From assembly GCA_020721345.1 (NCBI GenBank), contig DYMX01000010.1, positions 1 to 45,428 on the forward strand: a stretch of DNA of 45,428 bases. Reading direction: 5' to 3'. The notes beneath the pieces were generated by a model. It had not been told where the DNA came from. It saw only the letters and a list, made by a program, of their open reading frames with translations, and did no database searches. A program made the translations under genes and the position numbers. Positions 13,594 to 27,727 of this stretch are shown here, one piece after another; the first letter of the stretch is position 1; each line of letters begins with the position of its first letter. The stretch comes from Sulfurovum sp. Its GTDB lineage: Bacteria > Campylobacterota > Campylobacteria > Campylobacterales > Sulfurovaceae.

Positions 13594-15360
13594 CTATATC
13601 TTTTGCACAACTGTAACTTTTTTTGGACTAAAAAGTTCAATGGCTTCTTTTACCATCGGCTCATTCATGAGATCCTCGGGATTTTTTTCTTTCCCTGCTT
13701 CGTTTGCAGCTTCGGGCATGATGCATGAGCTTGGCATCTCTATATCTTCTATCATTGAGCCGACTTCATTTGCACATTCATCTTTTTCTTTTCTGTTGTC
13801 TTCTATCTTTTGCGCATTCAACTTTGGACTTTCATCAAAATTTTGTTTTTGCGCTAAAGGTGTATTTTTTATTTGCGTTGTGCTTCCAAAAATATCTTGA
13901 ACAAATTTTCTAATAACTCCAAAACCGGCTTTTAGTTTTTCCTTGTCGTCATCGTTTGCGCTTGATATCCAGTAAAGCGTATTGTCCTCAAATTTATCAA
14001 AAATAGTTGTTCTCTCAAAGCAACTGCCAAGAACAAAATCTCTATCATAGATCTTTGCCACCAAATCACTGAAAAGCTTTTGATGAGTTGTATTTTGTGT
14101 GTAAATCTGGGTGTGTGTTTGAGTTTGGGCGTGGGTTTGTGAAACTGTTGAGGCGCTAATATTTTCGTCACTGCGAGATGATTTATCATCGCGGCAGTCT
14201 ATTTGAGTGGATTGACCTTGAGCAGAGCTCTGCGAGATTTCATGCCGCACTTCGTTCGCAATGACATAGGATGGCAAAGTTTGAGTTTTCGGCATTAAGT
14301 GTATATCCTTTTGCAACTCTTTTATGAGTGAATCAATATCTCTTAGCTCGAGTGATTCCATCATTTTAAACAGTGTCAAATATAAAACAAAGTCACCATC
14401 TGAACCAAGTTTTAAGAGTTCTTTCGAGTTTGCTATAACCCTAAAGAAACGCTCAATTATAAGTGGTGAAAGAAGCTTATCGTGTGCAAACATCATATCT
14501 TTGATAAAAAGCGTAAGCTCATCAAGTATTATTTCACACTCATATTCTGAGGCGAGTTTTATAAATTCATTCATTTTTTCCAAATCTTTTGACAGGATCG
14601 AAGAGATAAGATTTTTTAGATGACTCGGTTCTATGATGCCTAGCATGCTTGTGATAGTGGCTACATCAACAAAATTTTTACTATATACGATAGCTTGATC
14701 CAATAGTGTCAAAGAATCCCTGAGGCTCCCTGCGCCGCTTCTTGCTATTATTTCTATAGCATCATTCTCGTACCCTATGCCTTCAAGATTTAAAATATAC
14801 TCAAGATGACTTACTACAAGGTTATGTGGTATTTTTTTAAATCTAAAGTGTTGCGTACGAGAAAGTATGGTTGCAGGAAGTTTAAGGGGATCAGTTGTTG
14901 CTAAAATGAATTTAACAAATGGCGGAGGTTCTTCAAGCGTTTTTAAAAGCGCATTGAATGCCTGAGGAGTTAGCATATGCACTTCATCTATGATAAATAT
15001 CTTATATCTCGCGCTTGATGGTCTATATTTGGAATGTTCTATGAGCTCTTTTATGTCATCGATCCCTCTATTGCTCGCAGCATCCATTTCGATGATATCC
15101 ATATGGCGGTTTTCGTTTGCCATGATACAATTTGGACATTCGTTGCAAGGAGCGGATGTTTCTCCTTTGTCACAAATAAGCGCTTTTGCAAAAATTCTTG
15201 CAGTTGATGTTTTACCGCTTCCTCTTAATCCTGAAAAAAGATATGCATGAGATAGTCTTTTTGAATCAAGCGCAAGTGAAAGTGTGCTGGAGATGGAGTC
15301 TTGACCAATTAGGTCAGAAAAGAGATTAGGACGATATTTTCTTGCTAGTACTAATGACAA
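13594..15360 (-). CDS. dnaX: DNA polymerase III subunit gamma/tau
   Basis: Clamp-loader ATPase. Walker A is GLRGSGKTSTARIFAK, the zinc module is CNECPNC, Walker B is FIIDEVHML, and sensor 1 and the arginine region follow. I place the start at TTG (15360): AAGGAGG stands five bases upstream and the protein then begins MSLVLARKYRP, the universal DnaX N terminus, giving 588 residues. The in-frame ATG 24 codons earlier would run through an intergenic palindrome and is rejected. Residues about 366-398 are encoded by an in-frame palindromic repeat (14167-14265), followed by a Thr/Gln/His-rich tract; both lie in the linker between the clamp-loader core and the C-terminal tail. Confidence 0.94.
   Translation of the reverse strand: MSLVLARKYRPNLFSDLIGQDSISSTLSLALDSKRLSHAYLFSGLRGSGKTSTARIFAKALICDKGETSAPCNECPNCIMANENRHMDIIEMDAASNRGIDDIKELIEHSKYRPSSARYKIFIIDEVHMLTPQAFNALLKTLEEPPPFVKFILATTDPLKLPATILSRTQHFRFKKIPHNLVVSHLEYILNLEGIGYENDAIEIIARSGAGSLRDSLTLLDQAIVYSKNFVDVATITSMLGIIEPSHLKNLISSILSKDLEKMNEFIKLASEYECEIILDELTLFIKDMMFAHDKLLSPLIIERFFRVIANSKELLKLGSDGDFVLYLTLFKMMESLELRDIDSLIKELQKDIHLMPKTQTLPSYVIANEVRHEISQSSAQGQSTQIDCRDDKSSRSDENISASTVSQTHAQTQTHTQIYTQNTTHQKLFSDLVAKIYDRDFVLGSCFERTTIFDKFEDNTLYWISSANDDDKEKLKAGFGVIRKFVQDIFGSTTQIKNTPLAQKQNFDESPKLNAQKIEDNRKEKDECANEVGSMIEDIEMPSSCIMPEAANEAGKEKNPEDLMNEPMVKEAIELFSPKKVTVVQKI
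14167..14265 (-). repeat. Palindromic GTCATTGCGA-type element inside dnaX
   Basis: A 99-base element (33 codons, in frame) with ends GTCACTGCGAG and GCAATGAC in inverted orientation and an internal CTCGCAGAGCTCTGC palindrome. It is read as YVIANEVRHEISQSSAQ and so on, ending CRDDKSSRSDE. The same peptide type (VIANEVKQS...SSRDDG) is encoded by the element inside priA, and intergenic relatives lie at 15426-15448 and 36938-37020. It sits in a region of DnaX that tolerates variation. Confidence 0.8.
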
Positions 15361-15377
15361 AATATCCTCCTTGATGT

Positions 15378-15502
15378 TAAATAAATTGACACAAAAACTT
15401 ATTAGATTGCCACGCTTCTTTGAAGCTCGCAATGACAGTCATTGCGAGGAGTTTATGACGAAGCAATCCATATTTACATAGTATTTTGTGTCAATTTATT
15501 TA
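15378..15502. repeat. MITE-like palindromic element between uvrB and dnaX
   Basis: Perfect 19-base terminal inverted repeats, TAAATAAATTGACACAAAA at 15378-15396 and its complement at 15484-15502, enclose a core with CTCGCAATGAC / GTCATTGCGAG (15426-15436 and 15438-15448) and weaker outer arms (attgccacgcttc / gacgaagcaat). No coding capacity of its own. It lies directly upstream of the dnaX ribosome site and 28 bases past the end of uvrB, so the hairpin may also terminate or process the uvrB transcript. Confidence 0.75.
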
Positions 15503-15530
15503 TATAAAATTATATTCTATTTTTACTAAG

Positions 15531-17510
15531 TTATAGATTTTTAATTTTTGCTATTTGATCTCTAAGTCTTGCAGCTTCTTCAAATTCCAAACTCTTTGCA
15601 GCAACTAGCATTTTTGTTTTTAGCTCATTCATTAGTTTCTGTCTCTCACTCTTTGGCATCTTGTCAAGTTTGCTTTTTTTATCAAATATCTCACCGTGTT
15701 CTTCAAGCTTTAGATTGGTATCGAGTTCTCTTATGGTAGTGCGAGGTGTGATATTATGAAGTTTATTGTATTCGATCTGCTTTTCTCTTCTTTGTGACGT
15801 TATCTCTATCGTCTCTTTCATAGCATTTGTCATGCGATTGGCATACATTAAAACCTTGCCGTTAGAGTTTCTAGCAGCCCTCCCTGATGTTTGAATAAGT
15901 GAAGTAAGAGATCTTAAAAATCCTTCTTTGTCGGCATCAAGAATTGCAACGAGGCTGACTTCAGGCAGATCAAGCCCCTCTCTAAGCAGGTTGATACCTA
16001 TGAGTATATCAAACTCTCCTAAACGCAATGATCTAATTATTTGATTTCTCTCTATAGCATCAAGATCAGAGTGCATATATTTGGCTCTTAGCCCAAGGTC
16101 GTTGTAGTATTTTGTAAGCTCTTCCGCCATTTTTTTGGTGAGTACGGTTATTAAAACTCTTTCACCTCTTGCAATGACGCTTTTCATCTCATCGTATAGA
16201 TGTTCTACTTGATTTGTGCTTGGCGCCACTTCGATAGGGGGATCTAAAAGTCCTGTCGGTCTTACAACTTGCTCGGCGACTACGCTTGAGTGTTCCATCT
16301 CCCAATTTGAAGGAGTTGCTGAAACAAAGAGATAATGAGGGGCTTTGTTGATAAATTCATCGAACATCAAAGGACGATTATCAAGCGCGCTTGGAAGCCT
16401 GAAGCCATACTCTACAAGTACCTCTTTTCTGCTTCTATCCCCAGCATACATTCCGCGAAACTGAGGTAAGCTCACATGCGATTCATCAACTATGAGCAGG
16501 TAGTCCTCGCCCATTGCTTCAAAGTAATCTTGTAAAGAATATGGAGTTTCTCCCTCTTGTTTACCGGTTAAGTGTCTTGAGTAATTTTCTATTCCCTTGC
16601 AAATTCCGGTTGCTTCAAGCATCTCTAGATCAAACTCTGTTCGTTGTTTGAGCCTTGTATACTCGACCATGCGACCTTCTTTTTCATAAAATGCAAGTCT
16701 AGATGCTAGCTCTTCTTCTATATTTTTCATAGCAATGGCAAGTTTCTCTTTTCCAACTATAAATTGATTTGCGGCATATAGCGTAAACTCTTTTACCCTG
16801 CCATCTTTTTCGCCTGTGAGCGTGTCAAAATAGTACATATCTTCTATCTCATTGCCAAAAAATTCAACTCTCAAAGCCGCCTCTTCATTGTAAGCGGGAT
16901 AGATATCCACGATATCACCGTTTACTCTAAAATCACCTCTGTCAAAATAGTTGTCATTTCGCCCATAGCCCATCTCTACAAGTCTAAGCAATAACTCTTT
17001 TTGGGTATATGATGAGCCGACTTCAAGGTTTTGTACTATGGAGCTATACTCCTCAGGCGATCCTAAGCCGTAGTTTGCCGAAACCGATGCGATTACAATT
17101 ACATCTTTGTGGCTTAGAAGTGATGCCGTGGTGCTTAATCTCAATCTCTCCAGCTCTTCGTTTATGGAGCTGTCTTTTTCTATAAAAAGGTCTTGCCTTG
17201 GGATGTATGCTTCAGGCTGATAGTAGTCATAATAACTTATAAAATACTCTACATGGGCTTGCGGGAAAAAGCTTTTGAACTCGCTGTACAGCTGAGCAGC
17301 TAGAGTTTTGTTGTGCGTCATGATAAGGGTCGGTTTGGCTGTTTTTTGAATGACCTGAGCCATCGTGTATGTTTTACCTGAGCCAGTAACTCCAAGAAGG
17401 GTTTGGTATCTATTGCCGCTCGTGATAGAATTTACAAGTTTTTCAATGGCTTCGGGCTGATCGCCTGAGGGCGTATATGCGCAGCTTAGTTCAAAATCTT
17501 TTTTTTTCAT
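15531..17510 (-). CDS. uvrB: UvrABC excision nuclease subunit B
   Basis: Damage-verifying helicase-like subunit of nucleotide excision repair. The 659 residues show Walker [16 protein letters not shown] near residue 40, the beta-hairpin [29 protein letters not shown] (helicase motif II region), TSGRAARN (motif VI), and a C-terminal UVR motif (about 622-657) for UvrA/UvrC contact. The ribosome site before its ATG (17510) is weak. It points away from the small-ORF/pilin cluster, as in C. jejuni (uvrB Cj0680c next to Cj0681). Confidence 0.97.
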
Positions 17511-17557
17511 TATATGGTTCTTTATTTCAATTTATATTTTTTTGTCATTTTATTTTT

Positions 17558-17596
17558 CACTCACTCACACCCATACTCACCCACAACACACACTTA
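17558..17596 (+). other. C/A-rich, G-free tract upstream of uvrB
   Basis: About 39 bases composed almost only of C, A and T, with repeated CACTCAC, CACCCA and CACACAC units and no G on the plus strand. It lies in the divergent space between uvrB and the next gene. Similar ACCCACACTCAC tracts occur on the coding strands of priA (21028-21064 and 22133-22169) and dnaX (around 14095-14150), in both cases next to a palindromic element. Confidence 0.5.
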
Positions 17597-17647
17597 AATA
17601 ATTTATGTTATTATATCAAATATAACAGATCAAACCAAAGGCAGAAA

Positions 17648-17845
17648 ATGAGCGCGCTTGAAAAGCTGAGTGAAAAGATAGCAACACTAAAAGCATCTCA
17701 AGATGAGTTAAGGTCTAAAAACGAAGAGCTTGTATCAACTATATCCCAGATGCAAAAAGAGATAGATACTCTGAAGAGTGAATTGGCAGAAAAAGATGAA
17801 GAGATAGAGTCTATCATAGCAAAAATAGAAGATTTACTGGGGTAG
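17648..17845 (+). CDS. Small coiled-coil protein
   Basis: 65-residue protein predicted by eye to be one continuous coiled coil: heptads of Leu/Ile/Met run from ALEKLSEKIATLKAS to IESIIAKIEDLL, rich in Glu and Lys. Start is ATG at 17648 with AAAGG upstream. It corresponds by position to Cj0681 of C. jejuni (uvrB - Cj0681 - Cj0682). Size and all-helical character recall the cell division factor ZapB, and its partner gene looks ZapA-like, but this is a structural resemblance only and no function is proven. Confidence 0.7.
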   Translation: MSALEKLSEKIATLKASQDELRSKNEELVSTISQMQKEIDTLKSELAEKDEEIESIIAKIEDLLG

Positions 17846-18076
17846 ATGATGGAGAAAGATTTTAAAAAAGTTTCTGTTACTATTGCGGGTACGAGATATG
17901 AGTTTGCGCTTGAAGAAGAGTTTGCAAAATTTGTTCTTGATATTTTTAACAAAAATGATATTTTTACAGATCAAGACAATCGCCCCGATAAGTTACTCAA
18001 AGCTTTTTTGACCATTTCAAAAGAGTATTTTGAGTATGAAGAAAATATAAAAGCCCTTATGGACGAGATCGAATAA
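17846..18076 (+). CDS. Small conserved protein, weakly ZapA-like
   Basis: 76-residue protein starting on the base after the preceding stop codon (a second ATG follows at 17849). The N-terminal KKVSVTIAGTRYEF is a two-strand pattern, followed by helices, as in the N-terminal half of the cell division protein ZapA; the C-terminal part is helical and acidic (EYFEYEENIKALMDEIE). It corresponds by position to Cj0682. Coupled with the coiled-coil gene, it may form a complex with it. Function is unassigned. Confidence 0.65.
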   Translation: MMEKDFKKVSVTIAGTRYEFALEEEFAKFVLDIFNKNDIFTDQDNRPDKLLKAFLTISKEYFEYEENIKALMDEIE

Positions 18077-18125
18077 AGTGATTATACAAATAAACTTTAT
18101 TATTTAAAAATAATTTCATAAATAC

Positions 18126-18155
18126 TTGACATTTATTTATAAAAAGTATTATAAT
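18126..18155 (+). promoter_or_regulatory. Consensus sigma-70 promoter of pilin gene 1
   Basis: A perfect TTGACA (18126-18131) and perfect TATAAT (18150-18155) are separated by 18 bases. It is the only promoter here with a full consensus -35 box, suggesting strong expression of the first pilin gene. The leader to the ATG is about 55 bases. Confidence 0.8.
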
Positions 18156-18215
18156 TTAAATCAGGATATAGGAGTTTATCGTTTATCCGAAATTTTATTT
18201 TTCAAAGGAGTTATT

Positions 18216-18626
18216 ATGAGAAAAGGTTTTACAATGATCGAGTTGATCTTCGTAATCGTAATTATAGGGATTTTGGCTGCTATTGCAGTACCAAGAATGA
18301 TGGGAACTAGAGATGATGCAAAAATATCTGCACAATTATCTTCTGCAAAACAAGTTATTAGTAATCTAGGTGCGGAATATACTGCAAAAGGTATATTGGA
18401 GGATGCAACTGTTACAGCTGCAGATAATGGTCTTGACTGCTTTACGGTTGCAAAAGCAGCTGTGGGAGAAGGAAATCTTACTCTTGCTGTTGCAGCAAAA
18501 GATGCTACAAGATGTCCTACTGAAGTTGAAGATGCTTTAAAAGTAGAAGCAGAAAAAAATGGTCTTACAGAAGCTGCTGGCGCTGAAAAAGTATTCACAT
18601 TTAGTGGAAGCAACATAGTAAGATAA
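18216..18626 (+). CDS. Type IV pilin-like protein 1
   Basis: 136-residue class III prepilin. I start at ATG 18216, which has AAAGGAG six bases upstream and gives MRKG|FTMIELIFVIVIIG: a short basic leader, Gly at -1, Phe at +1 and Glu at +5, followed by the hydrophobic helix. PRMMGTRDDAKISAQ continues the helical stalk. Two Cys (LDCFT and TRCPT) in the globular part probably form the C-terminal disulfide loop. It is a tandem paralogue of pilin 2. Likely a (pseudo)pilin of a type II secretion/type IV pilus or competence system; the machinery genes are not in the window. Confidence 0.88.
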   Translation: MRKGFTMIELIFVIVIIGILAAIAVPRMMGTRDDAKISAQLSSAKQVISNLGAEYTAKGILEDATVTAADNGLDCFTVAKAAVGEGNLTLAVAAKDATRCPTEVEDALKVEAEKNGLTEAAGAEKVFTFSGSNIVR

Positions 18627-18634
18627 TCTTTCAA

Positions 18635-18661
18635 AACAAAGGAGTACTTTTCTCCTTTGTT
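18635..18661 (+). terminator. Hairpin after pilin gene 1
   Basis: A 10-bp perfect stem (AACAAAGGAG / CTCCTTTGTT) with a 7-base loop begins eight bases after the stop codon. No long T-run follows, so it may be a weak terminator or a 3' stabiliser of an abundant pilin mRNA. Confidence 0.55.
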
Positions 18662-18774
18662 CCTCTCGCATTTATTATAACTTCTTTTATTCTTTTGTAT
18701 TTTTTATCTTATTTGATGTGTGTTGATTTTAATTATTTTTTTTAAAAATGTAATTCTAATTTTTAAATATATGA

Positions 18775-18780
18775 TATAAT
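18775..18780 (+). promoter_or_regulatory. Extended -10 promoter of pilin gene 2
   Basis: TGATATAAT (extended -10; TATAAT at 18775-18780) lies 44 bases before the start of the second pilin gene, preceded by T-rich sequence. Together with the hairpin after pilin 1 it indicates separate transcription of the two genes. Confidence 0.6.
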
Positions 18781-18823
18781 AAATTTGTAAGCTAAAATCA
18801 TTTTTTAGATAGAGGGGTTGTGT

Positions 18824-19231
18824 ATGAAAAATGGATTTACAATGATTGAGCTTGTATTTGTGATAGTAATTATAGGTATTTTGGCAGCAGTTGCAGTACC
18901 GAGATTATCGGCAACAAGGGATGATGCTAAAATATCCAAAGAGCTTGAGTCCGCAAAACAGTCAGTTTATAATTTGGGTATGGAATATACTGCAAAAAAT
19001 AGTTTGGATGCTGCAAAAATTACAGCCGCTGATAACGATCTTGATTGTTTCACGATAACAGATGAAGCGGGGGATGGAAATATTTCATTGGATGTAGAGG
19101 CAAAAAGCGAGAGCCGTTGCCCTGATAGTATTTTGAATGTTGTTCGAGAATCGGCGATAAAGAATGGGCTAATAGCAAGAGATGGCTCAAAGCAGGTTTT
19201 TGACTTTGGCAGGATTTCGGTAACTAGATAA
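18824..19231 (+). CDS. Type IV pilin-like protein 2
   Basis: 135-residue prepilin closely related to its upstream neighbour. ATG at 18824 has GAGGGG six bases upstream; the leader reads MKNG|FTMIELVFVIVIIG with Gly at -1 and Glu at +5. A TTG two codons earlier is in frame but is less well placed. The stalk (PRLSATRDDAKISKELESAKQ), the LDCFTI and SRCPDS cysteines and the C-terminal strand match pilin 1 along the full length, so the pair arose by tandem duplication. Role as for pilin 1: a subunit or pseudopilin of a type IV pilus/type II secretion/DNA-uptake machine. Confidence 0.87.
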   Translation: MKNGFTMIELVFVIVIIGILAAVAVPRLSATRDDAKISKELESAKQSVYNLGMEYTAKNSLDAAKITAADNDLDCFTITDEAGDGNISLDVEAKSESRCPDSILNVVRESAIKNGLIARDGSKQVFDFGRISVTR

Positions 19232-19256
19232 GCATATTTTTATTTATTTGAAATTA

Positions 19257-19262
19257 TATAAT
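19257..19262 (+). promoter_or_regulatory. Possible -10 box of pilin gene 3
   Basis: TATAAT stands 18 bases before the pilin 3 start codon. That distance is short: the transcript would begin close to the AAAAGGAG ribosome site. It is therefore only a possible promoter in an A/T-rich gap. Confidence 0.3.
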
Positions 19263-19280
19263 ATAAAAAAGGAGTTAGGG

Positions 19281-19757
19281 ATGAAAAAAGCATTTACAAT
19301 GGTTGAGCTTATTATGGTTATAGTCGTTATAGGGATACTTGCAAGCATTGCTGTTCCGAGACTTGTTGCCACAAGGGATGATGCAGAGATAGCAAAGGCA
19401 ACAGCAACTGTAGCATCTGTTAGAGCAGCGCTTTCAACCGAGAGACAACTTAGGGTTTTAAGAGGTGATTTTGCGCCGGTAGATTCACTTAATGCAGATG
19501 GCAATGGAGCATTTTCTACTTTTGGTAATGGCGCAGGCGGAGATACCGGCAGAACGGTTCTTGAGGGTTCTGTAGCAGCTTGTGCCAATGCAGCTGATAC
19601 GGGATGTTGGGCTGCAGCTGCGCCGACATACACCTATAGAATGCCAACAGGAGTTGGCGGAACTGTTGCGTTTTCTTTGCAAGATGCAGGAGGAAATTAT
19701 GACGGGCGGTTCACTTGTGACACAGATGATGAGAATTGTCAAAAGCTTACACAGTAA
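19281..19757 (+). CDS. Type IV pilin-like protein 3
   Basis: 158-residue prepilin, more distant from pilins 1 and 2. ATG 19281 is preceded by AAAAGGAG. The leader reads MKKA|FTMVELIMVIVVIG: Glu at +5 is kept but Ala replaces Gly at -1, a change tolerated by some prepilin peptidases. The globular region is Gly/Ala-rich with four Cys (CANAADTGCWAA and FTCDTDDENC). Lying just upstream of the priA region, it occupies the place of Cj0683 of C. jejuni (uvrB-Cj0681-Cj0682-Cj0683-priA), so it is probably the ancestral pilin-like gene of this locus. Confidence 0.85.
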   Translation: MKKAFTMVELIMVIVVIGILASIAVPRLVATRDDAEIAKATATVASVRAALSTERQLRVLRGDFAPVDSLNADGNGAFSTFGNGAGGDTGRTVLEGSVAACANAADTGCWAAAAPTYTYRMPTGVGGTVAFSLQDAGGNYDGRFTCDTDDENCQKLTQ

Positions 19758-19780
19758 TTTGATTTAAGTGTGTGAGTTTC

Positions 19781-19864
19781 TCTCGCTCCCATGCTCCTGC
19801 GTGGGAGTGTATATCGGCGTTTTAGAATTCAGTATGCATTCCCAAGGAGACCGTGGGAACGAGA
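19781..19864. repeat. Dispersed palindromic repeat (CTCGTTCCC type)
   Basis: The ends TCTCGCTCCC and GGGAACGAGA are inverted with one mismatch, and inner arms (tgcgtgggagtg / gcattccca, and ccaaggagaccgtggg) give further pairing. This GCGTGGGA/GGGAACGAG type of repeat is familiar from many proteobacterial genomes as an intergenic dispersed element. It fills the space between pilin 3 and the toxin-antitoxin promoter and has no coding capacity. Confidence 0.65.
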
Positions 19865-19865
19865 T

Positions 19866-19888
19866 AAATCGATTTTGTGATATAATAA
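19866..19888 (+). promoter_or_regulatory. Promoter of the MntA/HepT-type pair
   Basis: Contains an extended -10 TGATATAAT. The 23-base stretch AAAT-C-GATTTTGTGATATAATAA matches the stretch at 21061-21083, before the MazF-type pair, at 22 of 23 positions. The two toxin-antitoxin units thus share the same promoter sequence. Confidence 0.65.
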
Positions 19889-19913
19889 GCCTATAATCAA
19901 TTAGGATAAAAAA

Positions 19914-20222
19914 ATGAATAAAATATTATTATCTAAAATAAAAGAAAAAAAATTATCACTTATAAAAGATGGATTTGAAATAATAGGAGTATTTGGCTCA
20001 TACGCCAAAGGCAAAGAGACTAAAAACAGTGATATCGATCTTTTGTATGATATAAAGCCTTTGTTTATTCAAAAATATGGTGGTTTTGAAGCATTTGCTA
20101 AAATAAATGAGATAAGAAATGAATTAAAACAAGACTTGGGGCATGATGTAGATCTGGCAACTATAGATAGTAATAGTAGAACTTTTAAAAAATTTGCACT
20201 AAAAGATGTAATCTATGTCTAG
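19914..20222 (+). CDS. MntA-like nucleotidyltransferase antitoxin
   Basis: 102-residue minimal nucleotidyltransferase (MNT) domain. The defining GSX10DXD motif is intact: GSYAKGKETKNSDIDLLYD (about residues 28-46), with the third acidic residue in DVDLATID. In described MntA/HepT systems this protein is the antitoxin and transfers AMP to a tyrosine of the HEPN RNase HepT. AGGA lies before the ATG. It overlaps the HepT gene by eight bases, the usual arrangement. It is intact while its partner is frameshifted. Confidence 0.85.
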   Translation: MNKILLSKIKEKKLSLIKDGFEIIGVFGSYAKGKETKNSDIDLLYDIKPLFIQKYGGFEAFAKINEIRNELKQDLGHDVDLATIDSNSRTFKKFALKDVIYV

Positions 20223-20551
20223 CATAAATGAGAAATTAATATTTATATTAGAAAAAATAGACGACTTGGTTTTGTACAAGGAGTCTTTTTTAAATGCGCA
20301 TGATATGTTAAATAATAAAATGGCATTTGATGCATCATTGATGTGTTTGCTTCAAATCGGCGAAACACTTAATAAATTGAGAGATAGCGCTTATAGAGAA
20401 TTGTTGCCCATAAAAGGCACATATGATGTAAGAAATTTTATAGCGCATGACCTATGAAGGCGTCAATAAAGCTATAATCGAGGACATAATAAGGGTTCAT
20501 ATACCAAAATTGAAAAGTACGATCGAAAATATCTTAGAGCAAAATTGTTAA
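20215..20551 (+). pseudogene. HepT-like HEPN RNase toxin, frameshifted
   Basis: Read as it stands, the frame stops at 20457 after 80 residues (...YDVRNFIAHDL). Removing one C at 20451/20452 restores a 111-residue HepT that continues HD-YEGVNKAIIEDII and ends ...ILEQNC at 20551. The break falls inside the HEPN RNase/AMPylation motif RX4HXY (R-NFIA-H-D-Y): Arg and His survive but the Tyr and the last helix are lost. The product is probably inactive, unless the extra base is a sequencing error or is bypassed. The truncated priA copy starts right behind it. Confidence 0.8.
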
Positions 20552-20576
20552 AGGCTTATTATATTTTACTACCAAG

Positions 20577-21064
20577 TAGCATTATCAAAATCATCGGCTC
20601 CGTTGTTAACCTATGCAAGTGAAGCGAAACTTGAGATAGGTACTGTGGTAAAAGTTCCAGTCAAAAGTACGGTTAAAAGTGCCGTGGTTCTTGAGGAAGT
20701 AAAAAAGCCCGAGTTTGAAACCTCTGAAATTTTAGAAATAACCCCACACTTTTATACCCAAAAGCAGCTCATTATTGCCAAGTTCATATCAATATACTAT
20801 TTTTCTACTATTTCAGAAGCTTTGGCGCTTTTTGTACCGTTTAGGAAGTGTATGAGTGAAACTGTCATTGCAAACGAGGTGAAGCAATCTATTATTAAAA
20901 ATGTTGATCGCCGCGACTTTGCCTACACAGCTTCACTTCGTAAAGACCGTTTCGGTTCCAAAGCTACAAACGATAAGCAGTTATCGTTTGCTAAACGCTT
21001 TTCATCTCGCGATGACGGTATTTACCAACCAACAACCATTCACTCTCTACCCACACTCACAAAT
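20577..21064 (+). repeat. 488-bp perfect direct repeat, left copy
   Basis: Compared with 21682-22169 (offset 1105), all 488 bases are identical as far as I can read. The flanking bases differ on both sides (G versus T before, A versus T after). The repeat covers the priA 5' coding region, including the in-frame palindromic element, and ends in a C/A-rich tract. The MazF-type pair lies between the two copies. Confidence 0.93.
20864..21016 (+). repeat. In-frame palindromic element in truncated priA
   Basis: 153 bases (51 codons) bounded by GTCATTGC and its near-complement GCGATGAC, with inner inverted pairs (gtgaagc / gcttcac and gcttttcatctcgc). Encodes VIANEVKQSIIKNVDRRD and so on, ending SSRDDG. 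An identical copy is at 21969-22121 in complete priA. Same family as the dnaX element at 14167-14265. Confidence 0.8.
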
Positions 21065-21083
21065 AGATTTTGTGATATAATAA
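21061..21083 (+). promoter_or_regulatory. Promoter of the MazF-type pair
   Basis: Extended -10 TGATATAAT (TATAAT at 21076-21081) within a 23-base stretch matching the MntA/HepT promoter at 19866-19888 except for one base. Its first four bases, AAAT, are also the last four bases of the 488-bp repeat, so the toxin-antitoxin unit begins exactly at the repeat boundary. Confidence 0.7.
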
Positions 21084-21113
21084 TTTATTAAATTGCAGTG
21101 AAGGAGTTTGGTC

Positions 21114-21341
21114 ATGCAAAGATTTACAATACAAGTACAGGATTCTTTTGTTAATGATTTTATACTGTTTTTAAATAGATATGGAAGCAATATCAAGATA
21201 TTAGAGTCAAAAAATAGTTTTTCAGATAAACATGAAAAAAAAATCCAAAATAATAGCAAAAATGATATTATAAAAGCTCAAAATATATCCATGGAAAAAA
21301 CATGGGACAATGATGCAGATAAGGCTTGGGATGAGTTATAA
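21114..21341 (+). CDS. Probable antitoxin of the MazF-type pair
   Basis: 75-residue protein translated from ATG 21114, with AAGGAG seven bases upstream. The N terminus (MQRFTIQVQDSFVNDFILFLNRYG) looks like a short strand plus helix, as in small ribbon-helix-helix or Phd-like antitoxins; the rest is hydrophilic and probably flexible, ending EKTWDNDADKAWDEL. I do not recognise the family by name. The call rests on size, the 11-base overlap with the toxin gene, and the frequency of such N-terminal motifs in Campylobacterota antitoxins. Confidence 0.65.
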   Translation: MQRFTIQVQDSFVNDFILFLNRYGSNIKILESKNSFSDKHEKKIQNNSKNDIIKAQNISMEKTWDNDADKAWDEL

Positions 21342-21657
21342 AAAAGGAGATATTGTTCTTATCAATTTTCCTTTTACTGATCTTGCAAATTCTAAAAAAA
21401 GACCCGTTTTGATCATATCCGATGAAAGCAGTTTAAATGACATAGTATGTTTTCAGATTACATCAAGATCAACTCAAAATAATTTGATGCTAATAAATAA
21501 AAGTGAAATAGCAAGCGGTGAGTTAAAGCTTATATCATTTGTAAAATATGATAAGTGTTTTACATTGGATTCAAGTATCATAGATAAAAAATTAGCCTCT
21601 GTCAATGATGAATTTATGAACAAGTTAAAAACATTATTTTGTAAAACCATATTTTAG
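21331..21657 (+). CDS. MazF/PemK-type endoribonuclease toxin
   Basis: 108-residue MazF/PemK-like protein starting MSYKKGDIVLINFPFTDL, followed by KKRPVLIISDE: the GDIV..NFPF-TD..KKRPVLI pattern is the hallmark of this mRNA-cleaving toxin fold. The conserved C-terminal segment LKLISFVKYDKCFTLD is also present. ATG at 21331 overlaps the antitoxin stop (ATGAGTTATAA); an in-frame ATG at 21310 would lie inside the antitoxin gene and lacks a ribosome site. The gene is intact. It lies between the two copies of the priA 5' repeat. Confidence 0.85.
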   Translation: MSYKKGDIVLINFPFTDLANSKKRPVLIISDESSLNDIVCFQITSRSTQNNLMLINKSEIASGELKLISFVKYDKCFTLDSSIIDKKLASVNDEFMNKLKTLFCKTIF

Positions 21658-21665
21658 GACACTCT

Positions 21666-23666
21666 ATATACTATTTTCATTTAGCATTATCAAAATCATC
21701 GGCTCCGTTGTTAACCTATGCAAGTGAAGCGAAACTTGAGATAGGTACTGTGGTAAAAGTTCCAGTCAAAAGTACGGTTAAAAGTGCCGTGGTTCTTGAG
21801 GAAGTAAAAAAGCCCGAGTTTGAAACCTCTGAAATTTTAGAAATAACCCCACACTTTTATACCCAAAAGCAGCTCATTATTGCCAAGTTCATATCAATAT
21901 ACTATTTTTCTACTATTTCAGAAGCTTTGGCGCTTTTTGTACCGTTTAGGAAGTGTATGAGTGAAACTGTCATTGCAAACGAGGTGAAGCAATCTATTAT
22001 TAAAAATGTTGATCGCCGCGACTTTGCCTACACAGCTTCACTTCGTAAAGACCGTTTCGGTTCCAAAGCTACAAACGATAAGCAGTTATCGTTTGCTAAA
22101 CGCTTTTCATCTCGCGATGACGGTATTTACCAACCAACAACCATTCACTCTCTACCCACACTCACAAATTCTCAATTTGATGCTCTTAATGAGATAAAAA
22201 CTCATCAAAGATCACTCCTCTTTGGCGTGACGGGTTCCGGTAAGACAGAGATCTTCATTCATCTTATAGCAGATGCTTTGCAAGAAGGTAAAAATGTGAT
22301 CCTGCTTATGCCAGAAATCTCCCTAACGCCGCAAATGAAAAAAAGACTTACAAAATATTTTGGCGAAGAAATAGTTTTATGGCATTCTAAGTTATCCAAA
22401 AAACAAAAATTAGATATATTGGATGGAATTTATAGCGGCAAAGTTAGAATTGTAGCAGGGGCAAGGTCAGCTCTTTTTACGCCTTTGGATAATGTGGGAC
22501 TTATCATAGTGGACGAAGAACATGATGATAGCTATAAGGCTATGACAACTCCTAGGTATCACGCTAGAGATGTTGCTGTGATGATGGCTGAAAAATTAGA
22601 TGCCAAAGTAATATTGGCCAGCGCTACTCCGTCTTTGGGATCTTATATAAATTATCCCATTGTGAGACTAAAGGTCACTTATAACAAAAGTGATAAAACA
22701 TATAAGTTCATTGGCGGAGATAGCATAAATAACCACATATTGGGCGCCGTAACACAAACGCTAAAAAATGGCGAACAAGTTATCCTGTTTTTGCCGACAC
22801 GAGGCAATTTTAAATATCTACACTGCCCGGCATGCGGAGATACCCACAAATGCCCGTTTTGTTCAGTCGGTATGGCACTGCATAGAGATAGCCGCCACTT
22901 AAGATGCCATTACTGCGGATATAGTGAAGCAATAATCACCAAATGTACAACTTGTGGATATGAGCCTCTTGTCTCGAACAGGATAGGCACAAAAGAGGCG
23001 GTGGAGATAATAGGTGAAAATTTGCCAAATGCAAGGATAGCTCAGTTTGACAAAGACAGCATAACAACTCCCAAAAAACTTGACTCTTTACTGGATAGTT
23101 TGTCAAAAAAAGAGATAGATGTACTTGTCGGTACACAAATGATAAGCAAGGGGCATGATTATCCAGATATTACACTCTCGGTTATCATGGGCATTGATCA
23201 TATTTTAGGGCTTGCTGACTTTAGAGCCAAAGAGCGAGCTTGCAGTTTGATGTTTCAGATAGCGGGACGAAGCGGCAGGGACAAAGATGCTTTGGTGCTT
23301 ATACAAACACAGTATAAAGAGCAGTTTGCGCCGTATTTGAGTGATTATGAACTCTTAATTAAAGATGAACTCGAGTTTAGAAAAATGGCTTTTTATCCGC
23401 CATTTTCTAGAATAGCTAGAGTTATCATTGAAAATAGAGATAAAGAGAAAGCTAAAAATTTAACTAATTCTATAGGTAAAAAATTGCGAGAATTTGATAG
23501 AATAGAAATCATGGGAGAGGGCAAAGCTCCTATTGAGAAAATAGCAAATAGATATAGGTATCATATAATAGTCAAATCAAGCTCTCAAAAAGAGCTTTTG
23601 AAGGCTTTGCATAGTGTTAATGTGGCAGGTGTTAAGATAGATATGGATGCAATTGATTTTTCATAA
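21666..23666 (+). CDS. priA: Primosomal helicase PriA (probable AUA start)
   Basis: Restarts stalled replication forks. Helicase motifs are complete: GVTGSGKTE (Walker A, about 186-194), VDEEHDDSYK (DEEH box), and the zinc-binding Cys pairs CPACGDTHKCPFC and CHYCGY...CTTCGY. No ATG, GTG or TTG precedes the conserved N terminus: the first is TTG at 21708, which would cut into it. ATA at 21666, with AGGA six bases upstream, gives a natural start (YYFHLALSKSSAPLLTYASE) and 666 residues, about 50 above the usual length because of the in-frame element. priA is normally important, so a working start is expected. Confidence 0.9.
   Translation: MYYFHLALSKSSAPLLTYASEAKLEIGTVVKVPVKSTVKSAVVLEEVKKPEFETSEILEITPHFYTQKQLIIAKFISIYYFSTISEALALFVPFRKCMSETVIANEVKQSIIKNVDRRDFAYTASLRKDRFGSKATNDKQLSFAKRFSSRDDGIYQPTTIHSLPTLTNSQFDALNEIKTHQRSLLFGVTGSGKTEIFIHLIADALQEGKNVILLMPEISLTPQMKKRLTKYFGEEIVLWHSKLSKKQKLDILDGIYSGKVRIVAGARSALFTPLDNVGLIIVDEEHDDSYKAMTTPRYHARDVAVMMAEKLDAKVILASATPSLGSYINYPIVRLKVTYNKSDKTYKFIGGDSINNHILGAVTQTLKNGEQVILFLPTRGNFKYLHCPACGDTHKCPFCSVGMALHRDSRHLRCHYCGYSEAIITKCTTCGYEPLVSNRIGTKEAVEIIGENLPNARIAQFDKDSITTPKKLDSLLDSLSKKEIDVLVGTQMISKGHDYPDITLSVIMGIDHILGLADFRAKERACSLMFQIAGRSGRDKDALVLIQTQYKEQFAPYLSDYELLIKDELEFRKMAFYPPFSRIARVIIENRDKEKAKNLTNSIGKKLREFDRIEIMGEGKAPIEKIANRYRYHIIVKSSSQKELLKALHSVNVAGVKIDMDAIDFS
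21682..22169 (+). repeat. 488-bp perfect direct repeat, right copy
   Basis: Right copy of the repeat at 20577-21064. It is continuous with the complete priA gene. The junction with the toxin-antitoxin unit lies at 21681/21682, within the first codons of priA. Confidence 0.93.
21969..22121 (+). repeat. In-frame palindromic element in complete priA
   Basis: 153-base element identical to 20864-21016, translated without a stop as 51 residues of PriA between the N-terminal DNA-binding domain and the helicase core. The following C/A-rich linker (TTIHSLPTLTN) precedes the helicase domain. Confidence 0.8.
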
Positions 23667-23687
23667 TTGCCTAAAGAGTATTTTTTT

Positions 23688-23863
23688 GCTACCTTTTTAG
23701 TAAAGGTAGCGCCAAAAGCGTAAACACTCAGAGTTCGCTTCGCTCGTAAGGTGCTTCGTGTTTACATTATTTAAAATAATTTTGTCATCGTATGCATCCT
23801 TAGAAGCAGCACGAATTCAAGCGAAGTCGCAGAAGTAGTGCGTCGCGATTTGCTTACGATGAC
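23688..23863. repeat. Three hairpins between priA and ispG
   Basis: The 283-base gap after priA holds no gene but three inverted repeats: GCTACCTTT / AAAGGTAGC (23688-23696 and 23702-23710); GTAAACAC / GTGTTTAC (23720-23727 and 23758-23765); and GTCATCGTA / TACGATGAC (23784-23792 and 23855-23863). The last resembles the GTCATTGCGA elements elsewhere in the window. A further AAAAG-type palindrome (cttttcttta / taaaaagaaaag) follows near 23877-23899. The T-run lies 5' of the first stem, so it is not a standard terminator for priA. Confidence 0.65.
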
Positions 23864-23949
23864 GCTTTTCTTTTGTTACTTTTCTTTATAAAAAGAAAAG
23901 TTATACTTAATTGTGATAAAATCATAATAATTTAGAGTGAAAGCAGTCA

Positions 23950-25017
23950 ATGAAAGATAGATATCCAACCAAAAAAATATATGTAGGTGGTGTTGCGGTC
24001 GGTGGAGATGCTCCGATATCTGTTCAATCAATGACATATAGCAATACATCAGATATCGCATCAACAGTGGAACAGATAAATAGGCTTCATTTTGCAGGCG
24101 CTGATATAGTTCGCGTTGCAGTCCCGACCATGGAAGATGCGCTTGCTCTTAAGGCTATAAAAGAGCGCTCAAGCCTGCCTATAGTCGCAGATATTCATTT
24201 TAATTATCGTCTTGCACTAGAAGCCGCCAAGTGGGTTGACTGCATCAGGTTTAACCCAGGCAATATCGGCGAAAAAAGCCGTATAAAAGAGATAGTAAAA
24301 GCATGCAAAGAGAGAAATCTGCCTGTTAGGATAGGTGTCAATGCCGGCAGCTTGGAAAGCGAATTTGAAAATAGATACGGTGCAACTGCTAAAGGCATGG
24401 TTGAGAGCGCATTGTACAATATAAAATACCTTGAAGATCTTGATTTTACTGATATTAAAATATCACTCAAAGCCAGCGATGTGGATAGAACGGTGGAAGC
24501 TTATCGAATGCTGAGACCTCTAAATAACTATCCTTTTCATTTAGGCGTAACGGAAGCAGGGACTATTTTCCATGCAACTATCAAATCCGCGATAGGTTTG
24601 GGCGCATTGCTGCTTGACGGCATAGGCGATACTATGAGAGTCTCCATCACGGGAGAACTTGAGGAGGAGATAAAAGTAGGCAAGGCAATACTTAAAGACA
24701 GCGGCAGAGTAAAGGACGGTATCAATATCATCTCTTGTCCGACTTGCGGCAGGATAGAAGCTGATCTGGTAAGCGCGGTTGCGGAAGTTGAAAAGAGACT
24801 CTCGCATATTAAAACTCCTCTTGATGTGTCGGTAATGGGTTGTGTGGTAAATGCCATAGGCGAAGCAAAGCATGCCGATGTGGCGATCGCATATGGTAAG
24901 GGAAGCGGGCTTGTAATGGTTCGAGGTGAGGTTGTAGCAAAACTCGAAGAGAGTAAACTTGTAGACAGGTTTGTAGAGGAAGTAGAAAAAATGGCAAAAA
25001 TAAAAGAGGCAAATTAG
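23950..25017 (+). CDS. ispG: 4-hydroxy-3-methylbut-2-enyl diphosphate synthase
   Basis: Iron-sulfur enzyme of the penultimate MEP isoprenoid step. 355 residues, with N-terminal [17 protein letters not shown], an eight-strand barrel half including [19 protein letters not shown] and LGVTEAGT, and the C-terminal [4Fe-4S] ligands in SCPTCGR and [10 protein letters not shown] followed by the conserved Glu. The priA-ispG order is shared with C. jejuni. Its stop is followed immediately by the dnaB ATG. Confidence 0.96.
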
Positions 25018-26451
25018 ATGGAGCATATGTACAATCTAAATATAGAAAGAGCAGTTTTAAGCGCGATCATATTTGATCCGAAAATATTTGAGGATATCGC
25101 TGTTAGCTTGAAAGTTAAAGATTTTTATCTGCCGTTTCATCAATATATTTTTAAAGCCATGGATGAATTAGCAAGGGAAGATAAACCTATCAGTGAAGAG
25201 TTTTTGATATCTAAACTTCAAGATATCGGCAAATTTGACGAAACATTGATGCTGGAGATATTATCGTCAAATCCGATAACAGATACAAAAGCATATTCTG
25301 CTGAAATAAAATCAAAGTCCATAAAAAGAGCTATCGTAACGCTTGCTACAGAGATAAAGAAAGTAACGGTAGAGGATAATTTGCCAAGTGATGACGTTAT
25401 GAACTTGGTAGAAAAAAAGCTTTATGAGATAACGCAAGAGAGTATAAACGATGATTTTAGAGAGTCAAAAGATATAATAGTATCAACACTTAAAGAGATA
25501 GAAGAGAGAAAAAAACAAGGTAATTCAAAACTTATCGGTGTTGATACTGGGTTTTTAAATCTAAATGATAGAACCAGCGGTTTTGGTAAAGGGGATTTGG
25601 TCATAGTTGCGGCTCGTCCTGCTATGGGAAAAACAGCACTAGTTTTAAATATGGCGCTAAAAGCGATAGAGAGAGATGAAGGGGTAGCTTTTTTTTCACT
25701 TGAGATGCCGGCAGAGCAGCTTATGCTAAGACTATTGTCTGCTAAAACATCTATTATGCTGCAAAACCTAAGGCAAGGCAATCTAAGAGACGATGAATGG
25801 ACTAGAGTAGTAAGCGCTACAAATGAGTTAGGTCATAAAAAACTTTTTGTTGATGACGGCGGATATGTGACCATTCATCATGTGAGAAGCAAACTTAGAA
25901 AATTAAAAACAAAACATCCAGAAATTACCATGGCGTTCATTGACTATCTTCAGCTGATGAGCAGCGAAGGCGGCAACTCATCCAATCGCCAACAAGAGAT
26001 CTCAGATATTTCTAGAGGGTTAAAACAGCTTGCGCGTGAACTTGAAATTCCCATCATTGCGCTTTCTCAGCTAAATAGGGGACTTGAGAGCAGAGAAAAC
26101 AAAAGGCCGATGCTGAGTGACCTTAGGGAGTCTGGAGCCATAGAGCAAGATGCCGATATAATCCTTTTTGTTTATCGCGATGATGTCTATAGGGAGGCAA
26201 AAGAAAAAGAGCGAGAGATGAAAGCTAAGGCTGAAGGAAAAGAGTTCAAAAGCGAGTATGTCAAAAAGCCCGAAGAAGAGACCGAACTGATCATTGGAAA
26301 GCAGAGAAATGGACCAACCGGTACTGTGGATCTTGTGTTCCAGAAAAACTTTACTAGATTTGTGGACGATCTCTCAAAAACTAAAAAAACATTTCACGGT
26401 ATTGAAGTAGAGTTCCAAAAAGAGGGCTCCATAAGTTTGCCTCCTATCTAA
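25018..26451 (+). CDS. dnaB: Replicative DNA helicase DnaB
   Basis: Hexameric fork helicase, 477 residues. The N-terminal domain (about 1-105, NLNIERAVLSAIIFDP) contacts primase; a linker leads to the RecA-like motor with Walker A ARPAMGKTALVLNMA, FSLEMPAEQL, Walker B MAFIDYLQLM and LSQLNRGLESRENKRPMLSDL. An acidic/Lys-rich insertion (KEKEREMKAKAEGKEFKSEY, about 397-416) interrupts the C-terminal part, a feature seen in other Campylobacterota. It begins on the base after ispG; the ATG three codons later is an alternative start. Confidence 0.96.
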   Translation: MEHMYNLNIERAVLSAIIFDPKIFEDIAVSLKVKDFYLPFHQYIFKAMDELAREDKPISEEFLISKLQDIGKFDETLMLEILSSNPITDTKAYSAEIKSKSIKRAIVTLATEIKKVTVEDNLPSDDVMNLVEKKLYEITQESINDDFRESKDIIVSTLKEIEERKKQGNSKLIGVDTGFLNLNDRTSGFGKGDLVIVAARPAMGKTALVLNMALKAIERDEGVAFFSLEMPAEQLMLRLLSAKTSIMLQNLRQGNLRDDEWTRVVSATNELGHKKLFVDDGGYVTIHHVRSKLRKLKTKHPEITMAFIDYLQLMSSEGGNSSNRQQEISDISRGLKQLARELEIPIIALSQLNRGLESRENKRPMLSDLRESGAIEQDADIILFVYRDDVYREAKEKEREMKAKAEGKEFKSEYVKKPEEETELIIGKQRNGPTGTVDLVFQKNFTRFVDDLSKTKKTFHGIEVEFQKEGSISLPPI

Positions 26452-26455
26452 TCAG

Positions 26456-27727
26456 ATGAAGATATCAAAGCCGCAATTTTTTTTAACAAATAAGTCTTTT
26501 ACTTTGACAATATTGTTTTTTACGGCGCTTTTGCTTTTAAGGCTCGGATTGGTATATAAAGATTATCAGGAATTCAAGCTTAAGCCGTTTTATTTTACCT
26601 ATGCCAATACGCTAAGTATAGAAAATAAACCAAATGCCATGTATCCACATACACTTTTAAGGCTGCAAAGCGACAATGGTTTGGAATTCTATACAAAATC
26701 ATATGACATTGTGCCTCATGATACAAAAAGAGTCAGGGTTGAGATTTTTCCGGATTCAAATATAACTTTTTTAAAATTCTTGGGGGCATTTTTTGTAGAT
26801 AGCAGACTTAAAGAAGTTGTTCCTGTAGAGAAAAGTATCAAAGACAAGGTTGTAGAGAATATCAAAAATCAACATAATGACAATCTCACTTCAAATATAT
26901 ATCCGGCTATATTTTTCAATACACCGTTATCAAAAGAGATAAGAGACAAAGTTATCGTTTTGGGGGCAAGTCACTTAATAGCTCTTAGCGGGTTTAATCT
27001 TACGATTTTATGGGGTGTTGTTTTTGGTATTTTAGCATTTTTTTACAAACCGCTTCAGAGTAGATTTTTTCCTCATAGATATACCGTTATAGACCTAGGG
27101 CTTATCTCTCTTTTATTTTTGGGAGCTTATGTTTGGTTTGCAGATTTTTCTCCATCTCTCATACGCGCGTATGCCATGGTTTTATTTGGTTGGCTGATAC
27201 TTATTATGGGACTTGAACTTGTCAGTTTTTCATTTTTGGCTTTTATTGTTACTGTTCTTTTGGTCATTTATCCAAAATTTTTAGCATCGATCAGTTTTTG
27301 GTTTTCTGTCGCAGGAGTGTTTTATATAATGCTTGTGGCTCATCATACAAAAAATATAAACAAATATTTGATTGGATTTTTTATAATGCCTATATCTATG
27401 TTTTTGCTGATGCAGCCCATTGTGCACTCTATATTTGGACAAACATCAATGTATCAGCTTTTGTCAATTCCTCTTGAGCTTGCTTATGTCATATTTTATC
27501 CTCTCATGATGTTTTTACACATAGTGGGTTTTGGAGGAGTGTTAGATGTATGGCTGGTTTGGCTTTTGAATTTTGCGCCAAGCGAACTGAAAGAGAGTAT
27601 ATTCCCACTTTATTTGCTGATAGGTTATGCTGTTTTGTCTCTCGCTTCTATGTTTCATAGATATCTATTTTTTATACTTTTAGCTTCGGCTTTTATCTAT
27701 TCTCTCTATCTCTTCATCTTTGTCTAA
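26456..27727 (+). CDS. comEC: ComEC/Rec2 competence channel protein
   Basis: Inner-membrane protein of DNA uptake, 423 residues. It has an N-terminal membrane segment (about 13-33), an OB-like periplasmic part (about 45-130), and then the competence domain with many membrane helices from about residue 165, starting VIVLGASHLIALSGFNLTI, the typical HLxAxSG..L motif. It lacks the metallo-beta-lactamase domain of long ComEC proteins, as is usual in Campylobacterota. It lies four bases after dnaB. The three pilin-like genes at 18216-19757 could belong to the same uptake system, which is an inference. Its last 48 bases overlap the convergent YihY gene. Confidence 0.9.
   Translation: MKISKPQFFLTNKSFTLTILFFTALLLLRLGLVYKDYQEFKLKPFYFTYANTLSIENKPNAMYPHTLLRLQSDNGLEFYTKSYDIVPHDTKRVRVEIFPDSNITFLKFLGAFFVDSRLKEVVPVEKSIKDKVVENIKNQHNDNLTSNIYPAIFFNTPLSKEIRDKVIVLGASHLIALSGFNLTILWGVVFGILAFFYKPLQSRFFPHRYTVIDLGLISLLFLGAYVWFADFSPSLIRAYAMVLFGWLILIMGLELVSFSFLAFIVTVLLVIYPKFLASISFWFSVAGVFYIMLVAHHTKNINKYLIGFFIMPISMFLLMQPIVHSIFGQTSMYQLLSIPLELAYVIFYPLMMFLHIVGFGGVLDVWLVWLLNFAPSELKESIFPLYLLIGYAVLSLASMFHRYLFFILLASAFIYSLYLFIFV

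Follow-up and report, generated by a model that had tools for sequence, protein, structure and literature searches.

Why does a perfect copy of the 5′ end of priA, a DNA-repair helicase gene, stand upstream of the intact gene in this Sulfurovum genome, with a toxin-antitoxin pair between the two? The window, by which we mean the whole 45,428-nt stretch analysed, is contig C28 of a 1.24-Mb genome in 51 contigs. Among named genomes, those nearest to it are Sulfurovum-like and derive from metagenomes, and the relatives compared here are mostly metagenome-assembled. By exact comparison, positions 20577–21064 (copy 1) and 21682–22169 (copy 2) agree in 488 of 488 bases, as the initial annotation had it, and form the longest repeat of the window. 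The annotation also described the flanking bases as different. Identity does stop at both ends, with zero extension on either side, but the left flanks are not unrelated, both being diverged, alignable priA starts (IFYYQVA and IYYFHLA). With 0 differences in 488 positions, the 95% upper bound on divergence between the copies is 0.6%, in agreement with the recent event that had been proposed.

Both copies encode the PriA 3′-DNA-binding domain (PF17764). Copy 1 is contained in a truncated priA open reading frame (20561–21091), while copy 2 lies inside a whole priA of 666 aa read from an ATA codon (21666–23666), in which Pfam recognises all the PriA domains: the 3′-DNA-binding domain, the helicase core (PF00270), the zinc ribbon (PF18319) and the C-terminal domain (PF18074). 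All of these features, like the promoters and toxin-antitoxin genes described below, are on the forward strand. Two different toxin-antitoxin pairs are stacked upstream of the one intact priA, with the duplicated priA start between them. The locus reads (P-MntA-HepT-priA 5′ end) followed by (P-PemK pair-whole priA), where P is a promoter, and amounts to two priA transcription units in tandem.

The unit directly upstream of copy 1 (19914–20549), which was absent from the initial annotation, is a type VII MntA-HepT pair. The antitoxin gene mntA (19914–20222) encodes an adenylyltransferase (PF01909, E 8.8e-11; E 1.2e-11 against the NCBIfam MntA model, below its curated cut-off). It carries the GSX10DXD motif as GS-YAKGKETKNS-DID, which together with RX4HXY in HepT marks such systems (PMC7641770). 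The hepT gene (20215–20457) is frameshifted. Comparison with the intact copy in G009, the closest relative (its priA motor region is 87% identical in DNA), places the frameshift at 20445–20460. The frame ends just after RNFIAHD, and the rest runs out of frame to 20549. The window HepT consequently departs from described type VII toxins after RX4HX, having lost the C-terminal third and the Y of the motif, the tyrosine that is adenylylated. The HepT of G009 is intact (111 aa; PF01934, E 3.1e-12) and retains RX4HXY. MntA relatives above 90% identity are found only in the window and in G009. Because hepT is frameshifted, MntA-HepT has probably ceased to enforce its retention in the window genome.

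Between the repeats lies the PemK/MazF-type pair that had been reported there. The toxin gene (21331–21657) matches PF02452 (E 3.8e-12; 46.8 bits against a cut-off of 23.1). Its sequence alone gave no match in a PDB search, for which the family profile was needed; that profile aligns weakly but consistently to MazF structures, for example 4of1 (E 0.0009). The 75-aa gene overlapping it upstream (21114–21341) is a putative antitoxin by its position, its overlap with the toxin and its conservation in G009 and G078, and has no family match in Pfam, NCBIfam or PADLOC. Its product has a conserved C-terminal WDNDADKAWDEL. The pair resembles PemK/MazF type II modules in being an overlapping two-gene operon whose PF02452 toxin keeps the MazF-conserved RPV and IT positions. 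It differs from them in the antitoxin without a known family and in its placement within the priA leader, where the toxin stop codon TAG overlaps the priA Shine-Dalgarno sequence. This placement is shared: in the window and in G009, G078, G189, G169 and G158, the toxin frame terminates in a TAG, or has one at its end, that adjoins or lies inside the priA ribosome-binding site.

The promoter of the PemK unit had been noted to begin at the repeat boundary. The sequence TTTTGTGATATAATAA is indeed present there (P2, 21068–21083), but it is an exact second copy of a promoter further upstream (P1, 19873–19888, with the extended -10 element TGATATAAT) and is of native priA type. The motif also occurs upstream of priA in toxin-free relatives (G010, TTTGTGATATAATA; G005, TTTTGTGGTATAATA; G002, TTTTTTGGTATAAT); it is the same in G010 and shows a few changes in G002, G005, G158, G169 and G189. 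It precedes the toxin-antitoxin pair in G078, G189, G169 and G158. Because it stands before priA even in relatives without any pair, the 16-bp P is most simply read as the native priA promoter, so that the pairs would sit between P and priA. P2 is predicted to drive both the PemK pair and the whole priA.

The PemK unit appears to have come from elsewhere. In G078, where the same pair lies before a single priA, DNA identity to the window is 90.8% in the antitoxin gene and 91.4% in the toxin gene against 65.5% in the priA motor region. High identity continues past both the stop codon of the toxin gene and the ATA start before declining within priA: it is 92% at the start codon and falls to 62–67% within about 200 bp. 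Since the pair is about 91% identical and the motor region only 65.5%, the comparison indicates that the pair and the first priA codons came from another genus-level lineage. The two priA starts differ accordingly in type. Upstream of copy 1, the region 20550–20576 (Shine-Dalgarno AAAGG at 20550–20554, ATA start at 20561) is most similar to the priA starts of G009 and G010. Upstream of copy 2, the region 21656–21681 (Shine-Dalgarno AGGA, ATA start at 21666) resembles G078 and a priA fragment in G009, not copy 1, and its first codons (21666–21681) are of the G078 type. From these matches we read the start of copy 1 as native and that of copy 2 as foreign, with the repeat beginning where foreign sequence turns native, at 21682. 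The exact donor was not found among the sampled genomes. The arrangement best fits the alternative that the initial annotation had held in reserve, DNA from a relative in which the pair already stood before priA.

The annotation had favoured an analogy with restriction-modification units. On a reading of this kind, the PemK pair would be a self-mobile insertion into priA that duplicated 488 bp of its target, like the restriction-modification units proposed in Helicobacter. For restriction-modification systems, target duplications that are long and vary in length have been suggested (PMC3874152, PMC3031569), and the outward form agrees: a selfish pair lies between perfect direct repeats (488/488), and relatives such as G010 and G002 have single-copy sites. 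The insert is not unrelated to its target, however. It represents another allele of this locus, bearing a priA promoter and a foreign, diverged priA start, and in four other genomes the same kind of pair stands before priA without any duplication; neither feature would be expected of target-duplicating insertion. Because the inserted unit carries the target's own promoter and start, we do not class it as a target-duplicating insertion, a reading that we regard as improbable, although the locus may act like one at the level of selection.

The same site was compared across the family. It is empty, the state that the initial annotation had proposed to look for, in G010, G002, G004 and G005, which have a single toxin-free priA. 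The PemK pair stands directly before a single priA, with no duplication, in G078, G189, G169 and G158, the last in degraded form. The 5′ end of priA found a match in 137 genomes of the family; a true extra priA 5′ fragment occurs, judging by the doubles that were checked, only in the window genome and in G009. Six further genomes with two 5′ matches each (G048, G055, G064, G075, G096 and G152) were rejected as duplications, the matches being contig-end overlaps or split genes. In G009 the order is the reverse of that in the window: (U-P-PemK pair-priA mosaic fragment) is followed by (U-P-MntA-HepT-priA start), and the U-P stretch is repeated perfectly over 121 bp. Its priA fragment has a mosaic structure, with a foreign start, about 65 bp identical to the genome's own priA, and then a deletion. 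Because close relatives have empty and single versions of the site as well as one with the reverse order of pairs, it appears to collect selfish genes by recombination.

An assembly could also produce such a tandem by merging a strain with MntA-HepT-priA and a strain with PemK-priA. The genome is in 51 contigs and the 488-bp repeat exceeds short reads; moreover, the two contigs of G009 share exactly 55 bp where they meet at the priA start, possibly at a branch of the assembly graph. The priA-P2 junction (21064/21065), on the other hand, exists in neither single allele, and reads must have crossed it unless a match of a few bases sufficed to join contigs. Independently, a single contig of G009 carries both units, separated by a decayed priA fragment. 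We consider an artefact very unlikely, while noting that the tandem in the window rests on one assembly.

We consider it probable that P-MntA-HepT-priA and P-PemK pair-priA alleles were joined in tandem at a priA-leader exchange site of the Sulfurovaceae. The interval from P to the priA start would serve as the site at which toxin-antitoxin cassettes are exchanged in this family. In a first step, a PemK-pair allele from another genus would have entered the lineage by homologous recombination, with its right edge within the first priA codons, at the switch from foreign to native sequence at 21682. In a second, a short-homology or illegitimate junction would have linked a point about 504 nt inside priA, on the MntA-HepT allele, to one just upstream of the P of the PemK allele. 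The outcome would be a truncated 5′ piece of priA, the 488-bp repeat and a single intact priA that is now read from the PemK operon. At the junction (21061–21067) the bases AAAT are common to priA (CACAAAT) and to the region upstream of P1 (GATAAAT), a microhomology of up to 4 bp.

A sub-variant with the same donor and another topology holds that a circularised (P-PemK pair-priA 5′ end) integrated into priA by a single crossover. It yields exactly the observed arrangement, the priA-P junction with its shared AAAT being the point of circle closure. It requires a circular intermediate and a donor priA near-identical over 488 bp, or later conversion, and there is no vector trace; we think it rather unlikely. 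Recombination could undo the tandem. An in-silico deletion of 1105 bp by recombination between the repeats leaves P-MntA-HepT-priA with the intact 666-aa frame, bearing out the earlier remark that loop-out restores one priA. Recombination between the two P copies instead would leave P-PemK pair-priA.

What would hold the tandem in place is likely selection. Swapping one pair for another would expose the cell to an orphan toxin, and recombinants that keep both pairs would outlive clean swaps. Chromosomal restriction-modification systems reportedly withstand attempts to replace them with allelic DNA (PMC3874152), a precedent for this step, and by analogy addiction could favour retention of both pairs. 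Against the tandem-allele explanation, the hepT frameshift means that addiction by MntA-HepT cannot hold now, the sample holds only two tandem cases, and the donor lies outside it; hepT function may have been lost after the fusion. We also advance, tentatively, a broader possibility: the pairs would be leader cassettes of priA, an important housekeeping gene, with P as left edge and the priA start as right edge. Using these two arms for homologous recombination, they would spread from genus to genus, take over priA expression and punish loss of the resident, so that tandem stacking results in place of allele replacement. The window and G009 would then represent two independent outcomes in opposite order.

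Restriction-modification units inserted with long target duplications, and their tandem multiplication, have been described (Nobusato 2000, Furuta 2010 and Sadykov 2003, as cited in PMC3031569 and PMC3874152). The present locus is like them in that long direct repeats enclose selfish genes for post-segregational killing, in the possibility of loop-out and in resistance to allelic replacement as the suggested driver. It is unlike them in that the genes are a PemK-type pair and that the inserted unit, with its promoter and gene start, is a homologous allele; moreover, the window stacks two unrelated pairs, whose order is reversed in a sister species. The site allows the empty, single and double states of one toxin-antitoxin locus to be compared side by side, with one recent, perfect duplication and one older, decayed one. 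It makes testable whether chromosomal toxin-antitoxin genes resist allelic replacement and thereby drive gene duplication, as has been argued for restriction-modification.

The expression signals of an important gene have apparently been taken over here by a mobile toxin operon. Integrative elements can likewise give a target gene a new 5′ end and promoter, as SXT does at prfC. As with SXT-type elements, the target gene is left intact under the start signals of the incoming unit. In contrast to them, no integrase or attachment site is seen at the window locus, and exchange looks homology-driven. No transposon or integrase gene lies between the repeats, none was recognised by eye among the open reading frames of 17000–26000, and an Rfam scan of 15000–27000 gave no match.

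Both priA starts in the window lack ATG, GTG and TTG, and a Shine-Dalgarno sequence stands 6 nt before ATA (20561–20563 and 21666–21668). Across 113 distinct priA loci, the codon in the start column is TTG in 37, GTG in 17, ATA in 17, ATC in 12, ATG in 8, ATT in 6 and another in 16, most of these last having a canonical start a few codons away. ATA, ATC or ATT thus occupies the column in about a third of the loci (35/113), mostly in Sulfurovaceae. In these 35, differences by codon position are 0.34, 0.20 and 0.61 downstream of the start codon and flat upstream (0.62 each), the three-base periodicity beginning exactly at that codon. Codons 2–13 contain no canonical start in 32 of the 35, and a Shine-Dalgarno motif precedes 25 of them, compared with 7 of 54 TTG/GTG loci. 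The neighbouring gene ispG, chosen as the control (uvrB and dnaB were left out for few or ragged N-termini), has ATG in 54 of 72 cases and ATA, ATC or ATT in none. One clear non-canonical priA case was seen in 60 genomes of the class, nearly all from other families. Judged by codon periodicity and strong ribosome-binding sites, AUA, AUC or AUU often serves as the start codon of priA in Sulfurovaceae. Non-canonical starts are described for infC, pcnB and sigR (GTC, repressed by IF3; PMC5472188), and ccpN starts at AUA (PMC13009471); a limited literature search found no paper on such starts in priA. An initiation-factor-3-sensitive control of replication restart would be possible.

Within the repeat, the PriA linker carries a dispersed palindromic repeat in frame (about 20850–21040 and 21955–22145; fold z-score -3.55), with a 93% copy at G000:C33. 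Relatives seem to bear other repeats in the same linker (SLRG.CDEAI-, CEGRNLM- and HSGLDPES-like peptides), and several assemblies break there. Upstream of the locus, three pilin-like genes are clustered at 18126–19757, and a pilin gene beside priA is kept across most of the family.
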